A stretch of 34,644 bases of DNA, taken from a virus. Below the pieces are notes generated by a model that was not told the DNA's origin, made no database searches, and was given only the letters and a program-made list of their open reading frames with translations. How positions within the stretch are numbered: position 1 is the first letter of the stretch; every line of letters starts with the position of its first letter. Where the stretch lies: the IMG/VR virus record IMGVR_UViG_3300025030_000295, positions 1 to 34,644 of that record, one strand, 5' to 3'. A program made the translations under genes and the position numbers. This document shows, one piece after another, positions 1 through 12,476 of the stretch.

Positions 1-111
1 ATCGAAAGAGCCCGCCGCAGCCTGGACTGGTTTCGCGAGAATATAACTGAAGTCGAAGAAGGGCTGAATTGGATTTACATGTACAAGCAACCGGCCCTGA
101 AACTGGGCTGA
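1..111 (+). CDS. C-terminal fragment of an unknown cassette protein
   Basis: An open frame runs from the first base to a TGA at 109-111 and gives the last 36 residues of a protein whose start lies outside the window. The tail is rich in Arg, Glu and aromatic residues and I do not recognise it. It ends just before the first attC-like site, as the other array genes do, so it is most likely the cargo of an eighth cassette whose own attC lies upstream of the window. Confidence 0.6.
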   Translation: MERARRSLDWFRENITEVEEGLNWIYMYKQPALKLG

Positions 112-113
112 CG

Positions 114-203
114 AACGAACGGGTTTTGCGGCTGAACCGCAGTCACTTTTAACGGCTGCGCTCAACTTTTATCGGCTCGGCGGGTCGAGCCGCTTGGTTA
201 AAT
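114..203 (-). other. attC-like recombination site 1 (90 bp)
   Basis: Read on the - strand, the R''-type box is ATTTAAC (203-197) and the R'-type box is GTTCGTT (120-114), the one poor match to GTTRRRY in the set. The inner arms are GCGGCTGAACCGC (128-140) and GGCGGGTCGAGCCGC, which pair with one extra base in the right-hand arm. Its outer and inner arms are almost identical to those of site 6, with a different centre. It belongs to the cassette of the 217-606 gene: ATTTAAC here is complementary to GTTAAAT at the far end of that cassette. Confidence 0.78.
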
Positions 204-216
204 TTTCGGAGGCATC

Positions 217-606
217 ATGGACAAGCGAGCAATTCATTGGATTACAGGAGATCACACAGGCACCTCAAGTAAAACCATTTGGGCCGCAATGATGGGTGGC
301 GTCGAGGGGACTCACCGGCTGGGCGGACGGTTTGACATCCCTTATGACCCCTCCGACTTTGGCCGCTGTCACCGACTCCTACAACTCATCCCTGAGTGGC
401 GGGCTAACCTTGGCAAGGTCGCTGAGATTTTCCCAGGCTGGAAGCCGATGGTGGACGCATGGGGTGAGTTGGAGGATCTGTGGGAGGAAGAACTGCCGAA
501 AGGGAAGCTCCCGAAACTCTACGAGCGGATTCAGGGGCTTGTGAATGAGTGCCGACTGGCTGACGGGTGGAAGCAAACTAGCCCTTATAGCTGGAGCCGG
601 GACTAA
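217..606 (+). CDS. Phage hypothetical protein (129 aa), cassette cargo
   Basis: The start is ATG 217 with GGAGG at 208-212. It encodes a 129-residue soluble protein with no membrane segment. It opens with a conserved-looking segment (IHWITGDHTGTSSKTIW, from residue 6) followed by a DPSDFGRC motif near residue 44, and it is rich in Trp and charged residues. From memory this type is common in proteobacterial phages and prophages and has no assigned function. It is the only gene of its cassette. The TAA at 604-606 directly abuts the ATTTAAC box of attC site 2. It has its own ribosome binding site just after attC site 1 and no visible promoter, so it probably depends on read-through from upstream. 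Confidence 0.82.
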   Translation: MDKRAIHWITGDHTGTSSKTIWAAMMGGVEGTHRLGGRFDIPYDPSDFGRCHRLLQLIPEWRANLGKVAEIFPGWKPMVDAWGELEDLWEEELPKGKLPKLYERIQGLVNECRLADGWKQTSPYSWSRD

Positions 607-694
607 ATTTAACGGTTCGCGGGTCCCCCGCTGCAGACTTTCACTGACCGGCTCTGGCTGGTCGCAACCTGGCGGGTGGACCCGCTTGTTAAAC
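607..694 (-). other. attC-like recombination site 2 (88 bp)
   Basis: On the - strand the R'' box is GTTTAAC (694-688) and the R' box is GTTAAAT (613-607). The inner arms GCGGGTCCCCCGC and GCGGGTGGACCCGC pair with one extra base in the right arm. The 40-nt centre can form a further small hairpin (GACC/GGTC). GTTTAAC is complementary to GTTAAAC at the far end (1284-1278) of the cassette holding the 705-1283 gene. Confidence 0.85.
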
Positions 695-704
695 CCTGGA
701 GGGA

Positions 705-1283
705 ATGATGGAACCTAAACTGCCGCGGTTGCTCGAATCTGGCCGAGTCGAAGTCAGGCTATCAAGTGTAGGTGGAACGCACGTCTTTGAGGAGTACGGC
801 ATTGACCGGCTGCTGAAGCACCTGCTGGACGCTAAGGAAGTGCTCCGGCCGGTAAAGGCGGGCTCGCCCGAACATAAGACCCGCCTTTACCTGGAGCGCA
901 AGCTGGACGTGGCCCGCGTAGCTAAAATCGTCATGCCGTACTTCATGTCAGAAGCAGACAAAGCAGATGAACAGGACCTGGAGGAAGTTACGGTCTCTGT
1001 TTCCTCAGTCTACAGCGCATGCAATGTCATGGCCTTCATCGAGAACCTGGAGATGTACGAAAAGGAACAGCGGGAGGAGATGGAGCAAATCCGCGCCAAG
1101 CTGTCACAGATAGAAATGGCAATCCGCGACTACCACTTTGCACTGGACACCTGCCAGCATGGGCATGTTGCCTTGGCACAGGCTTACGATGTTATCTCTG
1201 ATGTGATGGGCTTGCCTTGGGAATACGGGGCAGAACAGGTAAGGCGTCGTCATGCCGCGGAGAAGTCGCCGGAGTCGGTTTAA
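705..1283 (+). CDS. Hypothetical protein with coiled-coil segment (192 aa), cassette cargo
   Basis: Two tandem ATGs occur at 705 and 708. GGAGGG at 698-703 sits one base from the first and four from the second, so 708 may be the true start. The protein is soluble and charged. Residues about 100-150 (from VYSACNVMAF through EKEQREEMEQIRAKLSQIE) look like a long amphipathic helix or coiled coil. I do not recognise a family. It is the sole gene of a 671-bp cassette. Its stop codon TAA (1281-1283) lies inside the GTTTAAC core of attC site 3, so the recombination core supplies the stop. Confidence 0.8.
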   Translation: MMEPKLPRLLESGRVEVRLSSVGGTHVFEEYGIDRLLKHLLDAKEVLRPVKAGSPEHKTRLYLERKLDVARVAKIVMPYFMSEADKADEQDLEEVTVSVSSVYSACNVMAFIENLEMYEKEQREEMEQIRAKLSQIEMAIRDYHFALDTCQHGHVALAQAYDVISDVMGLPWEYGAEQVRRRHAAEKSPESV

Positions 1284-1325
1284 CGGTTTTGAGTTGTGCC
1301 AGTAGGCACGAACGCCTTGTTAAAC
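1278..1325 (-). other. attC-like recombination site 3 (48 bp)
   Basis: On the - strand the R'' box is GTTTAAC (1325-1319) and the R' box is GTTAAAC (1284-1278), a perfect outer pair. The inner stem GTTGTGCC/GGCACGAAC has a 4-nt loop and one extra base in the right arm. The - strand reading AACAAGGCGTTCGTGCC closely resembles the left half of classical attC sites such as that of aadA1. It is shorter than the 57-141 bp usually quoted for attC sites. Confidence 0.87.
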
Positions 1326-1351
1326 GGGGCGTACTTTCCATGGAGGGAATC

Positions 1352-1594
1352 ATGAGCGACAAAGAGCATGTGAATCACCCGCAGCACTATGGCGGGAAAG
1401 AGAACCCGTATGAGGCCATCAAGATCATTGAAGCCCACGACTTGGGCTTCAATGACGGCAACGCAGTCAAGTACACCCTTCGCGCTGGCAAGAAGGACCC
1501 CGCCAAGGCGATAGAGGATCGTGAAAAAGCTATTTGGTACCTCACCCGCGAAATCCAAAAACTGAAAGGAGAACTGCCTCATGTTACTCGTTAA
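1352..1594 (+). CDS. DUF3310 (SaV-like) phage protein (80 aa)
   Basis: The start is ATG 1352 with TGGAGGGA just upstream. An in-frame ATG at 1340 lies within that ribosome site and is less likely. The 80-residue protein has the hallmark pattern of the phage DUF3310 family: an N-terminal VNHPQHY motif (residues 7-13), then a region ending NAVKYTLRAGKKD (about 38-50), then an amphipathic helix with AIWYL. The family is frequent beside nucleotide-metabolism genes in phages and its function is not settled. It overlaps thyX by 14 nt and shares one cassette with it, which suggests coupled translation and a joint role in thymidylate supply (inference). Confidence 0.88.
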   Translation: MSDKEHVNHPQHYGGKENPYEAIKIIEAHDLGFNDGNAVKYTLRAGKKDPAKAIEDREKAIWYLTREIQKLKGELPHVTR

Positions 1595-2258
1595 ACCGTC
1601 CGCTGAAATCCTGCACATCACCACCGAGCCGCTGCATCTGATCGAGGCTGCGGGACGGACCTGCTACAAGTCCGAAGACAAGATCACCGCCGACTCCGCG
1701 CCGAAGTTCGCGGAGATGATCCTGAAACGCGGGCACGAGTCGGTGATTGAGCATTGCTCCGCAACCGTTCGCTTCATCTGCGATCGCGGCGTGTCGCATG
1801 AGATCGTGCGTCACCGTCTGGCCAGCTACAGCCAGGAAAGCACGAGATACTGCGACTACGAGGGCGGGCATGTTGCCTTTGTGATTCCGCCCTGGACCAG
1901 ATTTTTACCTGGTGAGGCGTCATGCTGCACCGATGACGCAGCAGTAATCACACTCAACGACATCGCCGACGCAGGAGCTGTTTGGCTCTACAGTATGCAA
2001 CTTGCCGAGAACAACTATAAGGATCTGCGTGATCGAGGCTGGCGTCCCGAGCAGGCCCGCTCCGTCCTGCCGAATAGCTTGAAAACGGAGCTAGTGATGA
2101 CCGCGAACCTGCGCGAGTGGCGCCATTTCTTCAAGCTCCGGACTGCGGCAGCAGCTCACCCCCAGATGCAAGAGGTCGCGTGTCCTCTCCTGGAGAAGTT
2201 CAGGCAGGCAATGCCGGTGCTGTTTAACGATGTTGGCACCACGGAGAGCGCCGTTTAA
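1581..2258 (+). CDS. thyX: Flavin-dependent thymidylate synthase ThyX (225 aa)
   Basis: ThyX makes dTMP from dUMP using methylene-tetrahydrofolate, FAD and NADPH, and feeds phage DNA synthesis in the cytoplasm. The diagnostic motif RHRLASYSQESTRY is at residues 77-90 (RHR, seven residues, then Ser87). The upstream HESVIEH segment (52-58) and the downstream LPNSLKTELVMTANLREWRHF stretch (split here as LPNSLKTE and ANLREWRHF) are also family-typical. Length is normal for the family. It starts at ATG 1581 inside the 3' end of the DUF3310 gene, preceded by GGAG. The TAA stop lies inside the GTTTAAC core of attC site 4 (2253-2259). ThyX in phages is known; here it is cargo of an integron-type cassette. 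Confidence 0.97.
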   Translation: MLLVKPSAEILHITTEPLHLIEAAGRTCYKSEDKITADSAPKFAEMILKRGHESVIEHCSATVRFICDRGVSHEIVRHRLASYSQESTRYCDYEGGHVAFVIPPWTRFLPGEASCCTDDAAVITLNDIADAGAVWLYSMQLAENNYKDLRDRGWRPEQARSVLPNSLKTELVMTANLREWRHFFKLRTAAAAHPQMQEVACPLLEKFRQAMPVLFNDVGTTESAV

Positions 2259-2298
2259 CGAATTTAGCTCAGCGCTTGCGCTGGAGCGGGTGTTATGC
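2253..2298 (-). other. attC-like recombination site 4 (46 bp)
   Basis: On the - strand the R'' box is GCATAAC (2298-2292) and the R' box is GTTAAAC (2259-2253). GTTATGC/GCATAAC is the core also found in Vibrio repeat sites. The inner stem GCTCAGCGC/GCGCTGGAGC has a 2-nt loop and one extra base in the right arm. GCATAAC is exactly complementary to GTTATGC at 3048-3042, the far end of the cassette holding the 2317-3047 genes. Confidence 0.86.
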
Positions 2299-2316
2299 CC
2301 GCAGGAGACGGGGACC

Positions 2317-2694
2317 ATGGACAGTAAATTACACATTCTGCAACACTCCCTGGGCGTCGACCAGTACGGCAACGGGGTTCAGCATCGGAACCATTTTGTT
2401 ACTGGCCCTGGCGGGAAAGACCATGCGGACTGCATGACCCTCGTTGAAATGGGGCTGATGGCCAATCGTGGATCGAGCGCATTAACTGGCGGGTCCGATT
2501 GCTTCATCGTAACCAGGGCGGGCAAGGATTACATGACCCAGAACAGTCCCGTTCCGCCTCCACAACCGAAGTTGACAAAGAGCAAACAGCGGTACCAGCG
2601 GTATTTGGAGTATGGCGATATGTTCGACAGATTCATTGACTTCTGCCGGTGGGATGCTGCCCCGGAAAGAAGCTGGAACGGAGGTAGGGCATGA
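2317..2694 (+). CDS. Phage hypothetical protein (125 aa), cassette cargo
   Basis: The start is ATG 2317, preceded by CAGGAGACGGG. Longer upstream in-frame starts would run back through attC site 4 and are rejected. The N-terminus (HILQHSLGVDQYG, then RNHFVTGPG, then an Asp-His-Ala-x-Cys segment, residues about 6-40) is a type I recognise from many proteobacterial phages, with no known function. The C-terminal third is basic and aromatic. The stop overlaps the next gene's start (ATGA, 2691-2694), so the two genes are translationally coupled and move as one cassette. Confidence 0.83.
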   Translation: MDSKLHILQHSLGVDQYGNGVQHRNHFVTGPGGKDHADCMTLVEMGLMANRGSSALTGGSDCFIVTRAGKDYMTQNSPVPPPQPKLTKSKQRYQRYLEYGDMFDRFIDFCRWDAAPERSWNGGRA

Positions 2695-3047
2695 AGAGAG
2701 ATGAAGCGCGGGAGCTTTTCAATAGCACGTTGTCATACTCGGACGTCACGGTAGAGAGCGCCAAAAGACTCAGGGACATCATCGACTCCAAGATGGTGGA
2801 AAGTGGCCTGATGAACGGCACTTACAGGTGTCAAAAAACTATCTCACGGGTTGGTGACCCTGGGAAATTTTTTACCGGGATCAAATGCAAGTCATTCTAC
2901 TTCACTGGCCGGGAAGCTGTGAGTTTCAACAGGGACGGCTTTGTTGGGTTCGCTGGATGGTCGGACGAAACCAATGTGCAGCCTATCCTGGCAGGCTTCG
3001 CCGAGTGGGTCAACGAGACGGCAGCCGCTAAGCAGCAGGCGGCATAA
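2691..3047 (+). CDS. Hypothetical protein (118 aa), second gene of a two-gene cassette
   Basis: The start is ATG 2691, overlapping the preceding stop by four bases, with GGAGG upstream inside that gene. It encodes a soluble 118-residue protein with a helical N-terminal third and a probable beta-rich middle (CKSFYFTGREAVSFNRDGFVGFAGW, here split: CKSFYFTGREAV and SFNRDGFVGFAGW). It has no family I recognise. The stop TAA (3045-3047) is part of the GCATAAC core of attC site 5. Confidence 0.78.
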   Translation: MKRDEARELFNSTLSYSDVTVESAKRLRDIIDSKMVESGLMNGTYRCQKTISRVGDPGKFFTGIKCKSFYFTGREAVSFNRDGFVGFAGWSDETNVQPILAGFAEWVNETAAAKQQAA

Positions 3048-3091
3048 CGGTTTTCGAGCTGGCCGCGTAGCGGACGAGTGAGGGGTTAAGC
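3042..3091 (-). other. attC-like recombination site 5 (50 bp)
   Basis: On the - strand the R'' box is GCTTAAC (3091-3085) and the R' box is GTTATGC (3048-3042). The inner stem (GGCCGC against GCGGAC) contains one mismatch and one extra base in the right arm, so it is the least tidy of the seven. GCTTAAC is exactly complementary to GTTAAGC at 3827-3821, the other end of the cassette with the 3113-3826 gene. Confidence 0.78.
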
Positions 3092-3112
3092 ATCACATAT
3101 CAGGAGGAGCGG

Positions 3113-3826
3113 ATGGCAAAGGATTCAGAACGCTGGATAAAGGAAGCAAAGGAGAACCTGAAGGACCACCAGTTCAAACAACTGGCGTCGTGGGGCGAAG
3201 GTGATAGCGAGGTGTGGGAGTGCTCACGTCCAGGTTCGAGCTCTTATGCCTTCACCATCTGTATCACACGCATGGGGATCGCCGTCGTCGGAGACATCGA
3301 TGGGCTCACCTTCAACGTTGGCAGCAACTACGGGATGCCTTTCTTGGCTGGGAACGATGTGGGCTACTACATCCACTCAAAGCTGGAGGCGAGCTGCAAG
3401 GAGAAGGAACTGAACCGGGAGCGTTATCTGGAATGGGTGGCTCGGTGTGTCATCAGGTATATTGCCAATAACCATATCGACGGGCTGGAAGAGCGAAAGG
3501 TGGCTATCCCGGACTGGCTCACAGAGCATGCAGATCCTGACCACAAAGATTTCGAGCGTCTTCGGGACTTCGTTTACCACGTATGGCATGGCTTCGACTG
3601 CGCTGACGAGCTTTGGGACTGGTTCTACTCCTGTCACAACCTGCTGGACTCGGCTGATGGTGCGGCAGAAATGCACGAGGCTTACGCCCTCCCCGATCTC
3701 GATGGGGTCGATTTCGATTGGGCCGATGCCCCCGATTTTGAGAAACCGAGAGAGAGCCTGATGGTGCGGCTCCACATGGTAAACGAGGCGGCAAAGCGGA
3801 TCATGGCGCAGAAAGAGTCTGCTTAA
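3113..3826 (+). CDS. Hypothetical acidic protein (237 aa), cassette cargo
   Basis: The start is ATG 3113 with a good CAGGAGGAG ribosome site. It is the largest gene in the array after thyX. The product is acidic, soluble and rich in Trp, Asp and Glu, with no membrane segment or motif I can name. An Asp-rich segment (residues about 193-210) precedes a basic C-terminal helix. It is the only gene of a 779-bp cassette. The TAA at 3824-3826 forms part of the GCTTAAC core of attC site 6. An anti-host or metabolic accessory role would fit its place, but nothing in the sequence shows one. Confidence 0.82.
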   Translation: MAKDSERWIKEAKENLKDHQFKQLASWGEGDSEVWECSRPGSSSYAFTICITRMGIAVVGDIDGLTFNVGSNYGMPFLAGNDVGYYIHSKLEASCKEKELNRERYLEWVARCVIRYIANNHIDGLEERKVAIPDWLTEHADPDHKDFERLRDFVYHVWHGFDCADELWDWFYSCHNLLDSADGAAEMHEAYALPDLDGVDFDWADAPDFEKPRESLMVRLHMVNEAAKRIMAQKESA

Positions 3827-3911
3827 CGGGTTTTGCGGCTGAACCGCCGCCAACTCTTACACACTGACAGAAACTTTTACCGGCTCGGCGGGTCGAGCCG
3901 CTTGGTTGGGC
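3821..3911 (-). other. attC-like recombination site 6 (91 bp)
   Basis: On the - strand the R'' box is GCCCAAC (3911-3905) and the R' box is GTTAAGC (3827-3821). Inner arms GCGGCTGAACCGCC and GGCGGGTCGAGCCGC pair with one extra base on the right. It shares 23 identical bases on the left (3825-3847 with 118-140) and nearly the whole right half with site 1, while the centres differ. GCCCAAC is exactly complementary to GTTGGGC at 4472-4466, the far end of its own cassette. Confidence 0.86.
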
Positions 3912-3937
3912 GATTAAGCCCCAGAAAGGAAGGAACG

Positions 3938-4165
3938 ATGAAAGCAGCGATTGCAATAGATGACTGGAAACTGCCGATTTTTGACCGCCACCTGTCAAAA
4001 GCTGGTCACACCTACGAGATGGGACCGGGAGTAACGGAGGATACGCTCCTCCTCACGGTCGAATCCAACGACATGGCCGCACTGGAAATTGTGGTGCGGT
4101 CCGCGAACACAGAAGCCGCACAGACACCTAAAGGAGGCCGCAATGCAAGAAACTACCCTCACTGA
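3938..4165 (+). CDS. Small hypothetical protein (75 aa), cassette cargo
   Basis: The start is ATG 3938 after AGAAAGGAAGGA. An upstream in-frame start at 3833 would translate through attC site 6 and is rejected. The first 55 residues look like a compact alpha/beta fold (FDRHLSKAGHTYEMGPGVT, then TLLLTVESND). The basic tail past residue 60 overlaps the next gene by 23 nt and may be poorly constrained. No family recognised. It is the first of two genes in a 645-bp cassette. Confidence 0.68.
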   Translation: MKAAIAIDDWKLPIFDRHLSKAGHTYEMGPGVTEDTLLLTVESNDMAALEIVVRSANTEAAQTPKGGRNARNYPH

Positions 4166-4463
4166 TGGATCACCAGTGACACCGGACCATCGCGAAATCG
4201 ACCCTACAACGGGGATGCAGAAAGGCTACGTCGTGCTTTCCGCTGAAGAACGGGCAAAGGGCTTTGTGCGGCCAGTGCGCCGCTCCTACGTGCATGACAA
4301 GTGCGGGACTGTAACGACGATGGGACAGTCGCTGGCAGAAACCTACGCCCGCGATCCTGGCTTTTACAGCGGGACGTTCTGCGCCACCTGCCGCGCTCAC
4401 TTTCCTGTCGGAGCTAATGGCGAGTTCACCTGGCACGGGACAAACGAGAAGGTCGGAGTCTGA
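4143..4463 (+). CDS. Putative zinc-binding phage protein (106 aa), cassette cargo
   Basis: The start is ATG 4143 with a strong TAAAGGAGG site inside the 3' end of the preceding gene. Cys/His pairs occur in a YVHDKCGT segment near residue 60 and in FCATCRAHF near residue 85, so a small zinc-ribbon or zinc-stabilised fold is likely. The N-terminal third (around residues 21-40, TTGMQKGYVVLSAEERAKG) resembles phage proteins of unknown function found in proteobacterial phages. TGA ends at 4463, three bases before the GCCCAAC core of attC site 7. Confidence 0.8.
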   Translation: MQETTLTDGSPVTPDHREIDPTTGMQKGYVVLSAEERAKGFVRPVRRSYVHDKCGTVTTMGQSLAETYARDPGFYSGTFCATCRAHFPVGANGEFTWHGTNEKVGV

Positions 4464-4465
4464 CG

Positions 4466-4511
4466 GCCCAACGGTCTTTAGCTGTGCGAAAGCACGAGCG
4501 CCTTGTTAGGC
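4466..4511 (-). other. attC-like recombination site 7 (46 bp)
   Basis: On the - strand the R'' box is GCCTAAC (4511-4505) and the R' box is GTTGGGC (4472-4466). The inner stem AGCTGTGC/GCACGAGC has a short GAAA-type loop and one extra base in the right arm. The - strand reading AACAAGGCGCTCGTGC is a classical attC left half. GCCTAAC is exactly complementary to GTTAGGC at 5064-5058, the end of the array. Confidence 0.88.
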
Positions 4512-4526
4512 GCGGGGAGGGAGAGG

Positions 4527-5063
4527 ATGCAGGTAACAGAGCAAACAGTGCAGCGTATGACCATCACGGACGTGCCGAGCTTGGACCCGATAGCGGTTTA
4601 TCTGGAGGATTTTGGAGCAGGCAGGGGAAAGGCTACGATCACCTGTTCCAATGATTCTTGGTCTTACTTTTGGGGAAGCATGGGTGAAGGCTCGACTATC
4701 AGATCCTTTTTGGCTGAGTGCAGCAACGACTATCTGGCCGGTAAGTTTTCTCCTGGCCTCGACCACACAGTAGATGATTTGGACAAGCTGGTGGAGCACG
4801 CCAAAAAGCACATATGCAAGATGCGGCGCGATAACGATTTCAGCAAGGAAACGGCGCGGGAGCTTTTCGACCTTGCCGAACAGCATCTGGATGATGTCAG
4901 TGAGTTTTTTGACGTAGAGCGCGACTTGATGTACCGGATCTTCGGTGACGAGTGGTGGTATGACATCCCGAAGCAGCCTAACCACAAATACGAGTACCTG
5001 TGCAGGATACTTACGACGGTTAAAGAGGCACTTGCAGAGACGGCGGAGAAACTGGCCGCCTAA
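4527..5063 (+). CDS. Phage hypothetical protein (178 aa), terminal cassette cargo
   Basis: The start is ATG 4527 after a purine-rich GGGGAGGGAGAGG. The N-terminal half is beta-rich, with ITCSNDSWSYFWGSMG near residues 39-54 followed by FLAECSNDYLAGK (about 65-77). I recognise this as a conserved phage protein type of unknown function. The C-terminal half is helical and acidic, with an aromatic FGDEWWYDIP patch. Its TAA (5061-5063) is part of the GCCTAAC half-site that closes the array. It is the cassette nearest the late promoter, which in attC polarity would be the most recently added position. Confidence 0.83.
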   Translation: MQVTEQTVQRMTITDVPSLDPIAVYLEDFGAGRGKATITCSNDSWSYFWGSMGEGSTIRSFLAECSNDYLAGKFSPGLDHTVDDLDKLVEHAKKHICKMRRDNDFSKETARELFDLAEQHLDDVSEFFDVERDLMYRIFGDEWWYDIPKQPNHKYEYLCRILTTVKEALAETAEKLAA

Positions 5064-5096
5064 CTCCCTACTATCCCGCCATCCGGCGGGATAGTA
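5058..5096 (-). other. Array-end core half-site with perfect hairpin (candidate attI-like insertion point)
   Basis: GCCTAAC at 5058-5064 (GTTAGGC on the - strand) matches the far end of the last cassette but has no partner box after it. Instead a perfect 12-bp hairpin follows (5069-5080 with 5085-5096, loop ATCC) with no T-run. In attC polarity this is the leading edge of the array, where an attI-type site would sit. It could equally be a decayed attC or a transcription-ending stem-loop. I do not see standard attI direct repeats. Confidence 0.5.
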
Positions 5097-5195
5097 ACTC
5101 CTCCAATCCGCAGCAACCCCTCGCCGTTGCCGCATCCGGCTGGATAATGGAAAACGCAAAAGCCGCCGGGCTGACCTGGATTACCCTCTCTGTGC

Positions 5196-5225
5196 TTGAC
5201 AGACCTCGCCCGCCTGGGATATAGA
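5196..5225 (+). promoter_or_regulatory. Strong sigma70-type promoter, candidate late promoter
   Basis: A consensus -35 TTGACA (5196-5201) is followed after 18 bp by TATAGA (5220-5225). Reading the -10 as GATATA instead gives 16 bp. Transcription should start near 5232. It is the best promoter I see in the window and precedes lysis, packaging, head and tail genes that lack other obvious promoters. Confidence 0.72.
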
Positions 5226-5291
5226 GGCATGATCGCAGTTCCCTCCAAAACCGTCTAACCCCCCACTACTATTACCAAACTGAACCAAACG

Positions 5292-5314
5292 AACGCGCCG
5301 CCCGGCGCGTTTTT
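5292..5314 (+). terminator. Intrinsic terminator in the late leader
   Basis: The 8-bp stem AACGCGCC / GGCGCGTT (5292-5299, 5304-5311) with loop GCCC runs into a T-tract. It lies about 60-80 nt after the predicted start of the promoter at 5196-5225, so unmodified polymerase would make only a short RNA. Late expression would need read-through or antitermination. Confidence 0.78.
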
Positions 5315-6086: not shown

Positions 6087-6711
6087 CAAAAATCGGATAG
6101 CGGCGTCGCTCGCGCTGATGGCTATGGCCGGGTTCCTGGCCATGTTCGGGGGGCTCTGCTTCGTGCAGATCCCGGTGCAGAACAAGGATTTCTTCAACAT
6201 GGGCTTCATCGCCCTGATCGGCTTCGTCGGCACGGCCTTCGGCTACTACCTGGGGAGCTCGCTCGGCTCGGCTCATAAAAACGAGCTGCTCGCGCCGGGC
6301 GCCCAGGGCGTCCCGGGAACGGCTCCCCTGGCGGGGCCGGAGGGGTTCGCCCGCCTGCCGCTTCTTTCGGTGCTGGCGCTTGGCTGCACACTGATGCTCT
6401 GCGCCGGCTGCGCGACCTTGAAGACGGAGGGGCCGGAGGTTACGGCGGGCAAGGCGCTCCTGGCGGTGAAGCAGACGGTGGTGACTGCGGCCGTCACGGC
6501 TGATGCGCTCTGCGGCTCCGGGCAGATGTCCGCGGAGAACTGCGACCGGGCCAGGGCAGCTTACGAGATAGCCAAACCCGCCTACGATTCGGCGGTGGAC
6601 GCATACCTTCTGATGATCCAAGGGGGTGACCCTGCCGCATTCGGCGGGGCTCTAGCCCGGCTGCAGGGGCTCGCGCAGAACATGGCCGTTCTGACGGGAG
6701 GTGCCAAGTGA
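6079..6711 (+). CDS. Membrane protein with holin-like N-terminus and internal lipobox (210 aa)
   Basis: Residues about 7-30 and 41-60 form two membrane segments of holin-like spacing. A Gly/Pro/Ala linker (about 70-90) leads to a third hydrophobic segment (93-110) that ends in LCAGC, with Cys111 followed by a soluble helical domain of about 100 residues. The last part reads like a lipoprotein signal and mature outer-membrane lipoprotein. The gene therefore looks like a holin-type module fused to a lipoprotein (o-spanin-like) module. An independent internal start is possible (GGAGGGG near 6339-6345), but no ATG is present there. It starts inside the end of the lysozyme gene. The lysis role is inferred from context. 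Confidence 0.72.
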   Translation: MGNKNRIAASLALMAMAGFLAMFGGLCFVQIPVQNKDFFNMGFIALIGFVGTAFGYYLGSSLGSAHKNELLAPGAQGVPGTAPLAGPEGFARLPLLSVLALGCTLMLCAGCATLKTEGPEVTAGKALLAVKQTVVTAAVTADALCGSGQMSAENCDRARAAYEIAKPAYDSAVDAYLLMIQGGDPAAFGGALARLQGLAQNMAVLTGGAK

Positions 6712-7933: not shown

Positions 7934-8175
7934 ACCTGGAACGCGCGGCAATGAAGGGAAAGCTGGTCGAGGCCAGGGAAAAGCGGGTGCGGCTGATCAA
8001 CCGGATACAGGGGGACGCCACGGCGATCCGCGCGGCCCTCAACACGGCGCTGACTCCGGCCGAGGAGCTGAACGTCCCGGTGATCGATGAGCAGTGGGAC
8101 CAGCTCAAGGAGGCCTGGGCGGAGCTTGTGTCCGCGAACCAGGACATCAGGCAGCTGGAAAGGGAGCTGGACTGA
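7930..8175 (+). CDS. Small coiled-coil protein (81 aa)
   Basis: The start is ATG 7930, overlapping the previous stop. It is almost wholly helical and charged, with a central loop near PAEELNVPV. Mu-like phages have comparable small helical proteins just before the small terminase gene. The stop overlaps the terminase start (TGATG). Function unknown; it may assist packaging or lysis timing. Confidence 0.72.
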   Translation: MNLERAAMKGKLVEAREKRVRLINRIQGDATAIRAALNTALTPAEELNVPVIDEQWDQLKEAWAELVSANQDIRQLERELD

Positions 8176-8648: not shown

Positions 8649-10155
8649 GAAGATCAACCTCACAGAAGGGCAGTATGACAAGGAGGTGGGCGAGCTCAAG
8701 AAGTGGATCCGCGAAAGCGTCTCCCCTTTCGAGCACGACACGCCGGCCAGGAAGAAGGAACGCGTGGAGCGCGCCAGGACGGATCTGCTCTTCTTCTTCT
8801 CGACCTACCTGCCCCACTACTTCTCCTGCGACTTCGGCGATTTTCACGGAGAGTGGCAGGAGGTGACCGAGCTTTCAGACCAGTTCGCCCTGGTGGGCGC
8901 GCCGCGCGAGCACGCCAAGTCGACCTTCTTCACCCTGGGCAACCCGGTGCACAAGATCGTCTACGCGCTGAAGCGCTTTATCTGGCCCTGCTCGGACACC
9001 CACGACCAGGCGGCGGGCTTCGCCCTGCAGATCAAGCTGGAGCTGGAGGAGAACCCGCGCATCCGGCACGACTTCGGGGACCTGAAGACCAAGCAGTGGA
9101 GCGACGACGAGTTCGAAACCTCCAATGGCGTCAAGGTGCTGGCGCGCGGCCGCGGCGACAAGGTCAGGGGCATCAGGTACCGGCAGCACCGTCCGGACAT
9201 GGCGATCTTCGACGACATGGAGAATGACGAGACCGTGGAGAACCCGCGCACCACCAAGAAGATCTTGAACTGGATGCGCGGCGCGGTGCTGGGCTCGCTC
9301 GGCAAGGGGTACTCGGCCATCATGGTCGGCAACCTGTTCCACTCGAAGAGCGCCATCGTCCAGCTGATAGAGGACCTGGACGATGACGGCAAGCCGCGCT
9401 ACTTCTCCAAGGTCTACGCGGCGATCCTGGACGAGGGGGGCGAGAACGAGCGCCCCCTGTGGCCCGCGAACTGGCCCATGGAACGGCTGATCAAGAAGCG
9501 GCACGACGTGGGGAGCTTCACCTTCAACAAGGAGATGCTGAACAAGGTCGGGGTGGAGGATACACCCTTCCCCGAGCACCAGGTGAAGTACTACGGCCGC
9601 ATCGAGATGGTGAACCGCAAGCTGATCTTCTGCACGGCGATCGACCCGTCCGCCACCTCGCACAGCGGCAGCGACTTCCGCGCCGTGGTCACCTACGGCT
9701 TCGACCCGAAAGATATGCTCTTTCCCTGCATGCACGCCTGGATCCAGCGCCGCTCCATAAACGAGATGCTTGCCGCGGCCTACCAGCAGAACGACCAGTA
9801 TCCGGGGGTGGTGGCGATCGAGGACAACATGCTGAAGGAGTTTCTGCACCAGGCGATTCACAACTACGCCAAGGAGGTCGGGCGCTATCTCCCCTGGGCG
9901 CCGATGCAGCACTCGACCAACAAGATCGGCAGGATCGTCGGTACCTGCAGCTACCTCTGGGAGCACGCCAAGATGCTATTCGAGAAGGGGCACTCGGACC
10001 AGGCGCGGCTCATCGAGCAGTTCGTCTACATCTACAACGCCCAGGTGAACGACGACGGTCCGGACGCATCGGAGATGGCGATCAGCAGGCTGATGGGGGG
10101 AATGGGAATCAAAACGACTGACGCATTACCGGAGTTCGGGGAGGCTTTAGCATGA
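8641..10155 (+). CDS. Terminase large subunit, Mu gp28-like (504 aa)
   Basis: This is the DNA-packaging motor ATPase and nuclease. It has a Walker A-like GAPREHAKST (residues 86-95), a Walker B region ending IFDD (Asp191-Asp192), and an RNase H-like nuclease domain opening with TAIDPSATSHSGSD (Asp335) and closing with an Asp-containing DDGPDASEMAISR segment near the C-terminus. Length is normal. It starts with GTG 8641 within the end of the small subunit gene and overlaps the portal gene (ATGA). Confidence 0.93.
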   Translation: MRKKINLTEGQYDKEVGELKKWIRESVSPFEHDTPARKKERVERARTDLLFFFSTYLPHYFSCDFGDFHGEWQEVTELSDQFALVGAPREHAKSTFFTLGNPVHKIVYALKRFIWPCSDTHDQAAGFALQIKLELEENPRIRHDFGDLKTKQWSDDEFETSNGVKVLARGRGDKVRGIRYRQHRPDMAIFDDMENDETVENPRTTKKILNWMRGAVLGSLGKGYSAIMVGNLFHSKSAIVQLIEDLDDDGKPRYFSKVYAAILDEGGENERPLWPANWPMERLIKKRHDVGSFTFNKEMLNKVGVEDTPFPEHQVKYYGRIEMVNRKLIFCTAIDPSATSHSGSDFRAVVTYGFDPKDMLFPCMHAWIQRRSINEMLAAAYQQNDQYPGVVAIEDNMLKEFLHQAIHNYAKEVGRYLPWAPMQHSTNKIGRIVGTCSYLWEHAKMLFEKGHSDQARLIEQFVYIYNAQVNDDGPDASEMAISRLMGGMGIKTTDALPEFGEALA

Positions 10156-12476
10156 CCTGGTGGAAACCGTTTGCCAAATCCAAGCGCCCCGATGTGCTTC
10201 CCGGTCAGCAGTCCGTGCCCGAGGATTCCATCAGCGGGGTGATCAACAGCCTGACGAGCTTCTACACGTTCGCCTCGGCCCCCTTTGATCTCAGGGCGCT
10301 GGAGGTGCTGGAGCTTTTGGGGATGCTGAACCCGGATGTCGCGCAGGTGCTCTCCATCTGGGTCAACCTGGGCAATACCGGGCACGACCTGGAGGTGGAG
10401 GCGCGCAACCCCGAGGCGGTGCTGGACCGGCTGAACACGCTGGCCTCGACTGTGTACCAGACCGGCGGCGGGGTGGACGGCATGGTGAACCACTTCCTGC
10501 GCCAGATCCCGCTCATGGGGGCGCTCTCGGCGGAGTGGGTGGTGGCGGACCGCATCCAGGACGGCATCTCCGATTGCGTGGTGGTGCCGGTCAAGCGGAT
10601 CCGCTGGCAGAGGGTCGAGGGGGCATGGGCTCCTTTTCAGCTCACCAACACGATTACGGCGTCCAACCAGGGGCGCGTGGCGCTGAACCCGCTGACCTAT
10701 TCGTACATGCCGCTGCAGACCAACGACGGCAACCCCTACGCGATACCCCTCTTCCTCTCGGCGCTCAAGTCCCTGGGGATCCAGCTGGACAGCCTGGGCA
10801 ACGTGGGGGCGATCATCCGCAAGATGGGGCTGGTCGGGTTCGTCGACGTCGCGATGGATGTACCGGAGCGCAAGGGTGCGGAGAGCGACGAGAGCTTCGC
10901 GGCCCGCTGCGCGGCACGCCTCAAGGCATACTCCGCATCCTATTCGGCGGGGCTCTCCAAGGGGGTGGCGGTCCACTACAAGGATCAGGAGATCAAGCAC
11001 AACGCCATGAGCCCCGGCGCGGCGGCGGGGGCGAAGTCTCTCTTCGACATGAACGAGGAGCAGATCTTCAGCGGCCTGGACACGCCTCCCTCGATGTGCG
11101 GCCGCAGCTACTCGACCACGGAGACCTACGCCGAGGTGGACTACGAGAAGGTGGTCACCAAGCTCGGCAACGGCCGCCGGCTCATCAAGCGCTTCCTGGA
11201 AAAGGGGTACGGGCTCGATCTGCTGCTGGCCGGGATCGACGCGCAGGTCTCGGTCACCTTCCGGGAGAACTCGGCCTTCAAGCTGAAGGAAAAGGAGGAG
11301 GCCGAGGGGGAGCGGATCAAGAACGTCTTGAGCAAGCGCGACGGCGGCATCATCAACGACGACGAGGCGGCGCAGGAGCTCGGGTATGAGGAGGCCACCG
11401 GGAGGCTCCCGGGGGACCTGCCGCCGGAGGGGTTTTTGGGGAGCGCGGGGTTGAAAGGCGGGCGACCGGCCGGGTCGCCCCTACGGTTCGGGTTCGACAG
11501 GGTGCGCGGCCGCTACGAGTTGCTCCGGGAGCGCATCACGGTGCTGGAGACGCCGGACGACGACCGGGGGGACCAGAGCTATCAGGCGGCGCTGGAGAGC
11601 GTGCTGATCGGGCCGGAGGAGAAGGCGATCGAGGCGGCACTGGCCGCGGCGGAGGGCTTTGACCATGGAAAAAAGGTTCTCACTGCCATGCTCGCCCGTG
11701 AGTTTGCTGCAGCGGTCTGGACGGCGTTTGCGGGGACGCTGCGCGAGGAAATCGGCAAGACGGCGGTGATGAGGGTCTGCACCAGGTTTACCGGGGCCGC
11801 CTGGCGGCGCTGGCGCTACGAGGACAAGAACCACCTGAGCGCAAGGCGGCCGCAAAGCATGCCGATCGGCGGCCACCCGATCAGGCTCAAGATCGACATC
11901 GGCCTGGTGGACAAGAACGCCATCCGCTACATCACCAACGTGGAGGAGTTCTACTTCGGCCGCGGCAACTATCTGGCCCAGGACGACGTGACGGGGAGGC
12001 AGTTCATCACCTGGCTTCAGGAGGAGTACATCGCCAAGGGTCTCAACATCCGGGACGAGGCGACCTGGACCGAGTTCCGCGGGCTCTTCAAGAAGCTCGT
12101 GGAGGAGACGAGCTTTCAGAAGATCGAGCAGATCGTCTCGACCACCATGGGGCGCGTCCAGAACATGGGGCAGACCCTGTCGCTCTACGAGGCGGGGGTC
12201 AAGCGCTACCAGATCGTGGGGCCGCGCACGGCTCCGATCTGCGATTACTGCAAGTCGATGCTGGGGCGGATCTTCGAGGTGAAGGTGGCGGCTGAACGGC
12301 TGGCCACGGTGCTGGAGAAGGGTTTCGAGAAGCCGGCGGATCTCCCCCCTTTCCTTTCATCGAAATATTCGGTGGAGACGGTGCGGAAAATGACGGACCA
12401 GGAGCTCCAGGACGCCGGGTTCGAGTCGGCTCCCTTCCACCCCAAATGCAGGCACAGGAAGGCGGCGGTGGAGTAG
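10152..12476 (+). CDS. Portal protein fused to MuF-type head morphogenesis domain (774 aa)
   Basis: Residues 1 to about 420 match the Mu gp29-like (DUF935-type) portal that forms the dodecameric DNA gate. Landmarks are LNPDVAQVLSIWVNLG near 58, DTPPSMCGRSYSTTETYAEVDY near 313 (here split: DTPPSMCGRSYS, TTETYAEVDY) and a following helical stem. Residues about 470-774 are a MuF minor head domain ending with the zinc-type motif C697-x2-C700 and H763-x2-C766-x-H768. In Mu the two are separate genes (gp29 and gp30). A linker at about 430-460 contains a palindromic repeat (11460-11487). ATG 10152 overlaps the terminase stop. Confidence 0.9.
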   Translation: MTWWKPFAKSKRPDVLPGQQSVPEDSISGVINSLTSFYTFASAPFDLRALEVLELLGMLNPDVAQVLSIWVNLGNTGHDLEVEARNPEAVLDRLNTLASTVYQTGGGVDGMVNHFLRQIPLMGALSAEWVVADRIQDGISDCVVVPVKRIRWQRVEGAWAPFQLTNTITASNQGRVALNPLTYSYMPLQTNDGNPYAIPLFLSALKSLGIQLDSLGNVGAIIRKMGLVGFVDVAMDVPERKGAESDESFAARCAARLKAYSASYSAGLSKGVAVHYKDQEIKHNAMSPGAAAGAKSLFDMNEEQIFSGLDTPPSMCGRSYSTTETYAEVDYEKVVTKLGNGRRLIKRFLEKGYGLDLLLAGIDAQVSVTFRENSAFKLKEKEEAEGERIKNVLSKRDGGIINDDEAAQELGYEEATGRLPGDLPPEGFLGSAGLKGGRPAGSPLRFGFDRVRGRYELLRERITVLETPDDDRGDQSYQAALESVLIGPEEKAIEAALAAAEGFDHGKKVLTAMLAREFAAAVWTAFAGTLREEIGKTAVMRVCTRFTGAAWRRWRYEDKNHLSARRPQSMPIGGHPIRLKIDIGLVDKNAIRYITNVEEFYFGRGNYLAQDDVTGRQFITWLQEEYIAKGLNIRDEATWTEFRGLFKKLVEETSFQKIEQIVSTTMGRVQNMGQTLSLYEAGVKRYQIVGPRTAPICDYCKSMLGRIFEVKVAAERLATVLEKGFEKPADLPPFLSSKYSVETVRKMTDQELQDAGFESAPFHPKCRHRKAAVE
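11460..11487. repeat. Palindromic REP-like element, copy 2 (inside the portal-MuF gene)
   Basis: GGGCGACC, a 5-nt centre and GGTCGCCC (11460-11480) are followed by CTACGGT, almost identical to 7087-7113 with one extra G. It is read in a different frame from copy 1 and lies in the linker between the portal and MuF domains, so it may have expanded the linker without harm. Confidence 0.75.

Follow-up and report, generated by a model that had tools for sequence, protein, structure and literature searches.

A probable phage-borne integron with reversed cassettes exchanged between unrelated phages

The left-hand end of the viral record IMGVR_UViG_3300025030_000295 from IMG/VR, which we analyzed over its entire 34,644 bases (hereafter, the window), is very probably the cassette array of a phage-borne integron, and comparison with related contigs indicates that cassettes of its kind move intact from one phage to an unrelated one, with breaks at the cores of attC and attI sites. 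The array occupies positions 1–5064 and comprises seven attC sites, seven complete cassettes with ten open reading frames (ORFs), and one truncated cassette, with all genes on the plus strand, the hairpin sites setting off phage genes singly or in pairs, and an attI-like site (5058–5099) that ends the array and adjoins the phage late operon to the right. Because position 1 cuts through a cassette, the array runs on beyond the contig. Phage mosaicism is usually ascribed to illegitimate and homologous recombination, and integron cassette arrays are best known from antibiotic-resistant bacteria. The initial annotation of this DNA had placed attC-type sites between phage genes directly upstream of a late operon, and this is confirmed, with seven sites and with matches to attC models. 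It had further proposed that the phage uses integron-type recombination to swap an accessory array, for which cassette movement in related phages speaks, although the fragment at hand lacks an integron integrase gene (intI) and, taken alone, is a cluster of attC sites lacking integron integrases (CALIN) plus an attI-like site.

Movement of cassettes, the decisive test, is visible at the base level. A stretch of 912 bases at positions 8027–8938 of contig L099 recurs without a single difference in phage G033, and the two loci show no DNA match elsewhere. The left junction of this cassette reads TAACGG in both, with differing flanks, and the right junction reads CGCCTAAC in both, after which L099 continues into an attC site and G033 into an attI site. 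Similarly, L133 and L317 are identical over 101 bases up to GTTTAAC and then diverge into different sequences, one of them leading to intI. Cassettes of the window itself recur elsewhere. For example, positions 3043–3806 match the Mu-type phage G029, which carries PF02914, with 81% identity over 767 bp from the CATAAC core on. The DUF3310-thyX cassette is internal in the window, with attC 4 next to it, whereas its homologue in the IntI-encoding contig L134 (66–68% amino acid identity) is followed by attI. The window's truncated first cassette (1–122) has an exact duplicate in L134 as well, and an assembly break at this shared cassette would explain why the contig stops at position 1. Phages G030 and G035 have different arrays upstream of an attC core and match each other at 90% identity downstream of it. 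Over all comparisons, 10 of 58 homology ends, which are not fully independent of each other, lie within 8 nt of a core, against about 2.7 expected. By sequence, these are mobile cassettes bounded by recombination cores, and the gain, loss and reordering with breaks at core sites that the initial annotation had suggested looking for in relatives is what we see.

It could be argued that the hairpins are terminators or RNA elements and that the shuffling results from ordinary homologous recombination between similar hairpins, since the attC sites of the window fold well and some attC arms are alike enough for homologous exchange (e.g., window and L134 around 3042). However, at the junctions of the 912-bp cassette and of L133/L317 the flanks have only the core in common, and past the core stand an attC against an attI, or two unlike attI-side sequences. 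Further, one base is left unpaired in the stems, stop codons overlap the core heptamers, and IntI adjoins the array in sister phages. We consider this explanation very unlikely.

The attC sites were located by several approaches. A strict core-plus-stem scan of the plus strand gave four matches in positions 1–5100 and none in 5101–34644, and the mean over 200 dinucleotide shuffles of 1–5100 was 0.02 matches; chance does not account for the hairpins. Reference attC sites were drawn from the phages and plasmids collections. Two covariance models were built: R1, from 21 bacterial/plasmid attC sites with those of the window excluded, and R2, a phage attC model trained on six sites of the window, two of sister phages, and six of other phages (14 in total). 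The six intact sites of the window are the six top R1 matches in the 34.6 kb, each time on the minus strand. R2 gave 38 matches in 23 integron-phage loci (368 kb), of which 14 are at or near training sites, all with a single polarity relative to the array genes, and no matches in 24 control loci (445 kb) that included phages with related terminases or thyX; a thyX scan had yielded mostly unrelated thyX phages, which were reused as control DNA. Thus, the covariance-model search that had been advised for this array does return matches, with both models, and an Rfam scan of the window gave none.

All seven sites lie on the minus strand. Both core heptamers are present in six of them; attC 1 (113–203) is the exception, with a degenerate left core (GAACGAAC); the right arm of its stem is longer by one base. 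The earlier description of RYYYAAC/GTTRRRY cores in seven sites therefore applies to six, while that of one unpaired base per stem is borne out. attC 1 is a near-copy of attC 6 (3821–3911; scan, R1, and R2), and its counterpart in L134 (5723–5811) is recovered by R2. attC 2 (607–694), an R2 training site, was found by the scan, R1 (10.7 bits), and R2 (37.2 bits), and attC 3 (1278–1325) by the scan and both models, with the stop codon of the preceding ORF inside its core GTTTAAC. attC 4 (2253–2298), likewise found by the scan, R1, and R2, belongs to a subtype present in 10 viral contigs; attC 5 (3042–3091), found by R1, is common to L134 (94%) and G029; and attC 7 (4466–4511) is the top R1 match (14.2 bits) and is also matched by R2.

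In bacterial attC sites, the recombining strand is determined by the unpaired base in L'' (Bouvier et al., 2009; PMC2727003). The window has its extra base on the right-hand arm as read on the plus strand, which makes the minus strand the canonical attC orientation, opposite to the genes. The initial annotation had the site polarity reversed, and genes and sites of the same polarity were also our own first reading, overturned by the unpaired base and by the strand of the bacterial covariance model matches, both of which give the minus strand. In bacterial control loci fetched by intI, attC sites 5' of intI are opposite to intI in 47 of 51 polarized cases, and phage attC sites stand in the same relation to phage intI. 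The cassette ORFs are what differs: of 28 phage cassettes, 23 have their longest ORF directed against attC polarity, whereas in 22 of 27 bacterial ones it follows that polarity (Fisher p = 2.6e-6), and several of the five phage exceptions have short or multiple ORFs, for which the longest-ORF rule is unreliable. Since the phage cassette ORFs point toward attI, a Pc promoter at its usual place could not drive them, and judged by ORF direction the window departs from the integron arrangement in which Pc drives cassettes from the attI side.

The attI-like site (5058–5099, minus strand) has the core GCCTAAC followed by TCCCTACTATCCCGCC..GGCGGGATAG and separates the variable cassettes from the phage backbone. 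Of 14 aligned loci, 12 have a last cassette that terminates in TAAC and, behind it, a conserved sequence with the consensus TAACTACTGATTATCCCGCC..CGGCGG; the conservation of TAACTACTGATTATCC..CGGCGG in these loci marks the array border as a putative attI site. The sequence is found both in phages with intI (G001, L099, L100, L134, L103, and L306) and in contigs without it (the window, G031, G033, L109, and G002, where only a partial copy of intI exists at the contig end). Between intI-less phages, homology starts exactly at the attI core, as for window position 5061 versus G031 (71% identity) and for G033 versus G031. The comparison with G001, a sister phage whose terminase and portal proteins are 87 and 77% identical to those of the window, shows where intI would be placed: the interval 5100–5292, without intI in the window, is where G001 holds intI and a 102-amino-acid ORF, and homology resumes at window position 5293 (G001 10707). 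The junction of G030 and G035 had been taken as a further break at attI and was dropped, as the alignment places an attC there. As separate observations, a perfect 12-bp inverted repeat (TACTATCCCGCC/GGCGGGATAGTA) lies within the attI-like site at 5069–5096 and is possibly a terminator, and contig L318 has an array with two attI-like sequences (around 6410–6480 and 7950–8010), one of them inside the array, together with an ASCH-like cassette gene.

In G001, a complete integron integrase is encoded at 9318–10253 (323 bits versus a curated cut-off of 265), directly past the attI-like site and ahead of the lysis genes, and intI is present in nine other members of the same clade. Scans with the G001 integrase recovered further integrases in viral contigs. 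The contigs with phage IntIs come from phages that span at least three terminase families (phrog_38, phrog_15, and phrog_2). The ten phage IntIs align across all 387–388 residues, a conserved C-terminal extension among them; the 80 best bacterial matches largely lack this extension in their aligned part. In a quick tree they form one phage-only clade (SH-like approximate likelihood-ratio test, 99), with other viral-contig integrases as nearest neighbors, and some IntIs of the viral collection group with bacterial ones. The best solved structure for the phage IntI is 2a3v, the V. cholerae IntI (E = 5e-77), compared with 9e-32 for XerA; an AlphaFold model was of low confidence (predicted local distance difference test score 56.8) and was not used. 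The intI search called for earlier is accordingly positive in related phages at the array border and negative in the window. Among 277 genomes of one bacterial class (the class to which a Desulfuromonas metagenome-assembled genome belongs), only two have a nearly full-length match to the phage-type IntI, and in one of them, the bacterial assembly L306, attC, attI, intI, and a phage ORF stand in a row.

Given that the records are unannotated metagenome contigs, and that some viral-collection IntIs cluster with bacterial ones, bacterial integron contigs might have been misclassified as viral, or assemblies might be chimeric. However, intI was found in contigs that carry terminase and portal genes, in the window, G001, and others, genes for terminase, portal, capsid, and tail lie on the contig itself, and the arrangement recurs in several samples as well as in the bacterial genome assembly L306, which makes such an origin extremely unlikely.

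Several features of the integrases and their surroundings were observed in passing. The last ~45 residues of the phage IntIs (L085 9234–10397 and the nine others) look ribbon-helix-helix-like by eye, and Pfam gives weak hints for the C-terminal extension (RelB, E = 0.009; FitA-like ribbon-helix-helix, E = 0.1). The small ORF after the G001 intI is also present after attI in the prophage L109, which has no intI (L085 10440–10748; L109 6140–6420), and it resembles a cassette gene in L136 (7168–7589). Since this ORF ends at an AAC core-like motif, intI and the ORF may form one removable unit. A long (AG)n run right after the L099 intI stop codon (10798–10854) could be a phase-variable or an assembly feature. 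The partial integrase of G002 has a long N-terminal part and lies outside the phage late region. In addition, the viral integrases of L139–L144 form a sister group that lacks the C-terminal extension; some are located upstream of a DNA primase gene resembling the one in L099, with matches to attC of the same polarity.

A number of results weigh against assigning the window to a phage-borne integron. The window record has no match to TIGR02249 at E ≤ 10, no intI above the family cut-off was found in G029, G030, G031, G033, G034, or G035, and G002 has only a partial integron integrase at a contig end (L087 22–435, minus strand). R1 scores for single window sites are modest (8.7–14.2 bits, E = 0.12–3.3), and R2 was partly trained on window sites. 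Moreover, the contigs are mostly metagenome assemblies, several of them from one sampling series, and single junctions could therefore be misassembled.

The missing intI would also suit an inactive CALIN, derived from attC sites captured once from a host chromosomal integron. The likely host class is rich in chromosomal integrons, and integrase-less attC clusters have been reported in virulent phages (Qi et al., 2023; PMC9892861). By contrast, the cargo is phage-type, ORF orientation relative to attC is reversed compared with bacterial cassettes, phages share a conserved attI core and conserved cassette borders, and identical cassettes imply recent movement. For the phage group, a fossil origin is already contradicted by the identical core-bounded cassettes, and for the window we regard it as improbable.

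Taken together, we favor a phage-borne integron, in which IntI would bind the folded minus strand of attC, single-stranded during phage replication, and join it to a double-stranded attI or to another attC, as in bacterial integrons. New cassettes would enter at attI, the right-hand end of the array. The genes oppose attC polarity, and their transcription would therefore start at a phage promoter on the left and proceed in the direction of intI and the late operon, without a classical Pc beside attI. As the recovered fragment has no intI, the array may be rearranged in trans by the IntI of another phage or prophage, or intI may have been lost. The benefit might lie in fast swapping of nucleotide-metabolism and defense-evasion genes among co-infecting phages. 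It also seems reasonably probable that phage integrons constitute a distinct, long-standing class with their own IntI and attI and a shared pool of reversed cassettes, acting in trans on intI-less phages; as part of this broader proposal, the pool would circulate among unrelated phage lineages, apart from the bacterial cassette pool.

The initial annotation could name no established system of phages carrying cassette arrays. In this respect it requires correction, since attC arrays within phage genomes, a likeness to the present case, were reported before: Qi et al. (2023; PMC9892861) described CALINs in virulent phages, found that intI in temperate phages consists of fragments of host or class 1 integrons, and observed that five of six phage attC sites recombined with attI1 under IntI1. 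What is not among their reports is a phage-specific integrase lineage; here, the phages differ by a phage-only intI clade whose products carry a C-terminal extension, by an attI-like site that is conserved, by ORFs running against attC polarity, and by exchange of cassettes between phages that can be followed base by base. Sedentary chromosomal integrons (Vibrio, Xanthomonas, and others) resemble the phage system in the IntI family, in attI being located by the start of intI, and in attC polarity opposite to intI, whereas the phage arrays are short, sit just upstream of the late operon, and hold phage genes as reversed cassette ORFs. In Treponema integrons intI is transcribed toward attI (PMC3607928), while phage intI is oriented away from attI, which is also the classical layout, and the reversed part is the cassette ORFs. 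The literature searched yielded no earlier account of an integrase lineage specific to phages, with an attI of its own and cassettes that are exchanged, and, with few subscription papers or preprints included, this absence is weak evidence; such a lineage, with its reversed cassettes and shared cassette pool, appears to be new. A site-specific device of this kind would let unrelated phages trade single genes (e.g., thyX, DNA methyltransferase, NADAR, and ASCH) with base precision. It bears on the origin of integrons and on why cassette orientation is fixed, as the opposite direction of the phage cassettes leaves no role for a Pc promoter in their expression, and it is directly testable with existing integron assays.

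To the right of the array, the late operon (5604–34450, plus strand) encodes lysozyme, terminase, portal, protease, capsid, DUF2586, tape measure, baseplate J, and tail fiber proteins. DNA relatives of this operon were not found in the phages collection, nor was the capsid in the bacterial genomes scanned for it. The window begins past the early region; the sister phage G001 has an ORF with a DDE motif recognized by eye, for which a MuA label was dropped because Pfam gave no match.

The array cargo, all on the plus strand, was described from the outset as phage-type (thyX, DUF3310, and phage genes of no known function), with which the phrog and Pfam matches agree. It starts with a cassette ORF that is truncated where the contig begins, so that its 3' part remains (1–117), the window bases 1–122 being those identical to L134 5610–5731. 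Then follow a phrog_1229 ORF without an assigned function (217–606; E = 1.9e-27) and an ORF of no known family (705–1283), part of whose DNA recurs in phage G035 (74%). The next cassette encodes DUF3310 (1352–1594; PF11753, E = 2.1e-11; 66% amino acid identity to the L134 cassette) and the FAD-dependent thymidylate synthase ThyX (1581–2258; TIGR02170, 138.9 bits, cut-off 87.9). Further on are ORFs of phrog_13561 (2317–2694) and phrog_24658 (2691–3047), and three without an assigned function at 3113–3826 (the cassette shared with G029), 3938–4165, and 4143–4463. The attI-proximal ORF (4527–5063) belongs to phrog_3451 (E = 1.3e-47) and has homologues in Pseudomonas, enterobacterial, and other phages. 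Other phage arrays hold NADAR, N6/N4 DNA methyltransferase, and ASCH genes, and, going by these domain names, counter-defense and nucleotide metabolism are plausible themes of the cargo.

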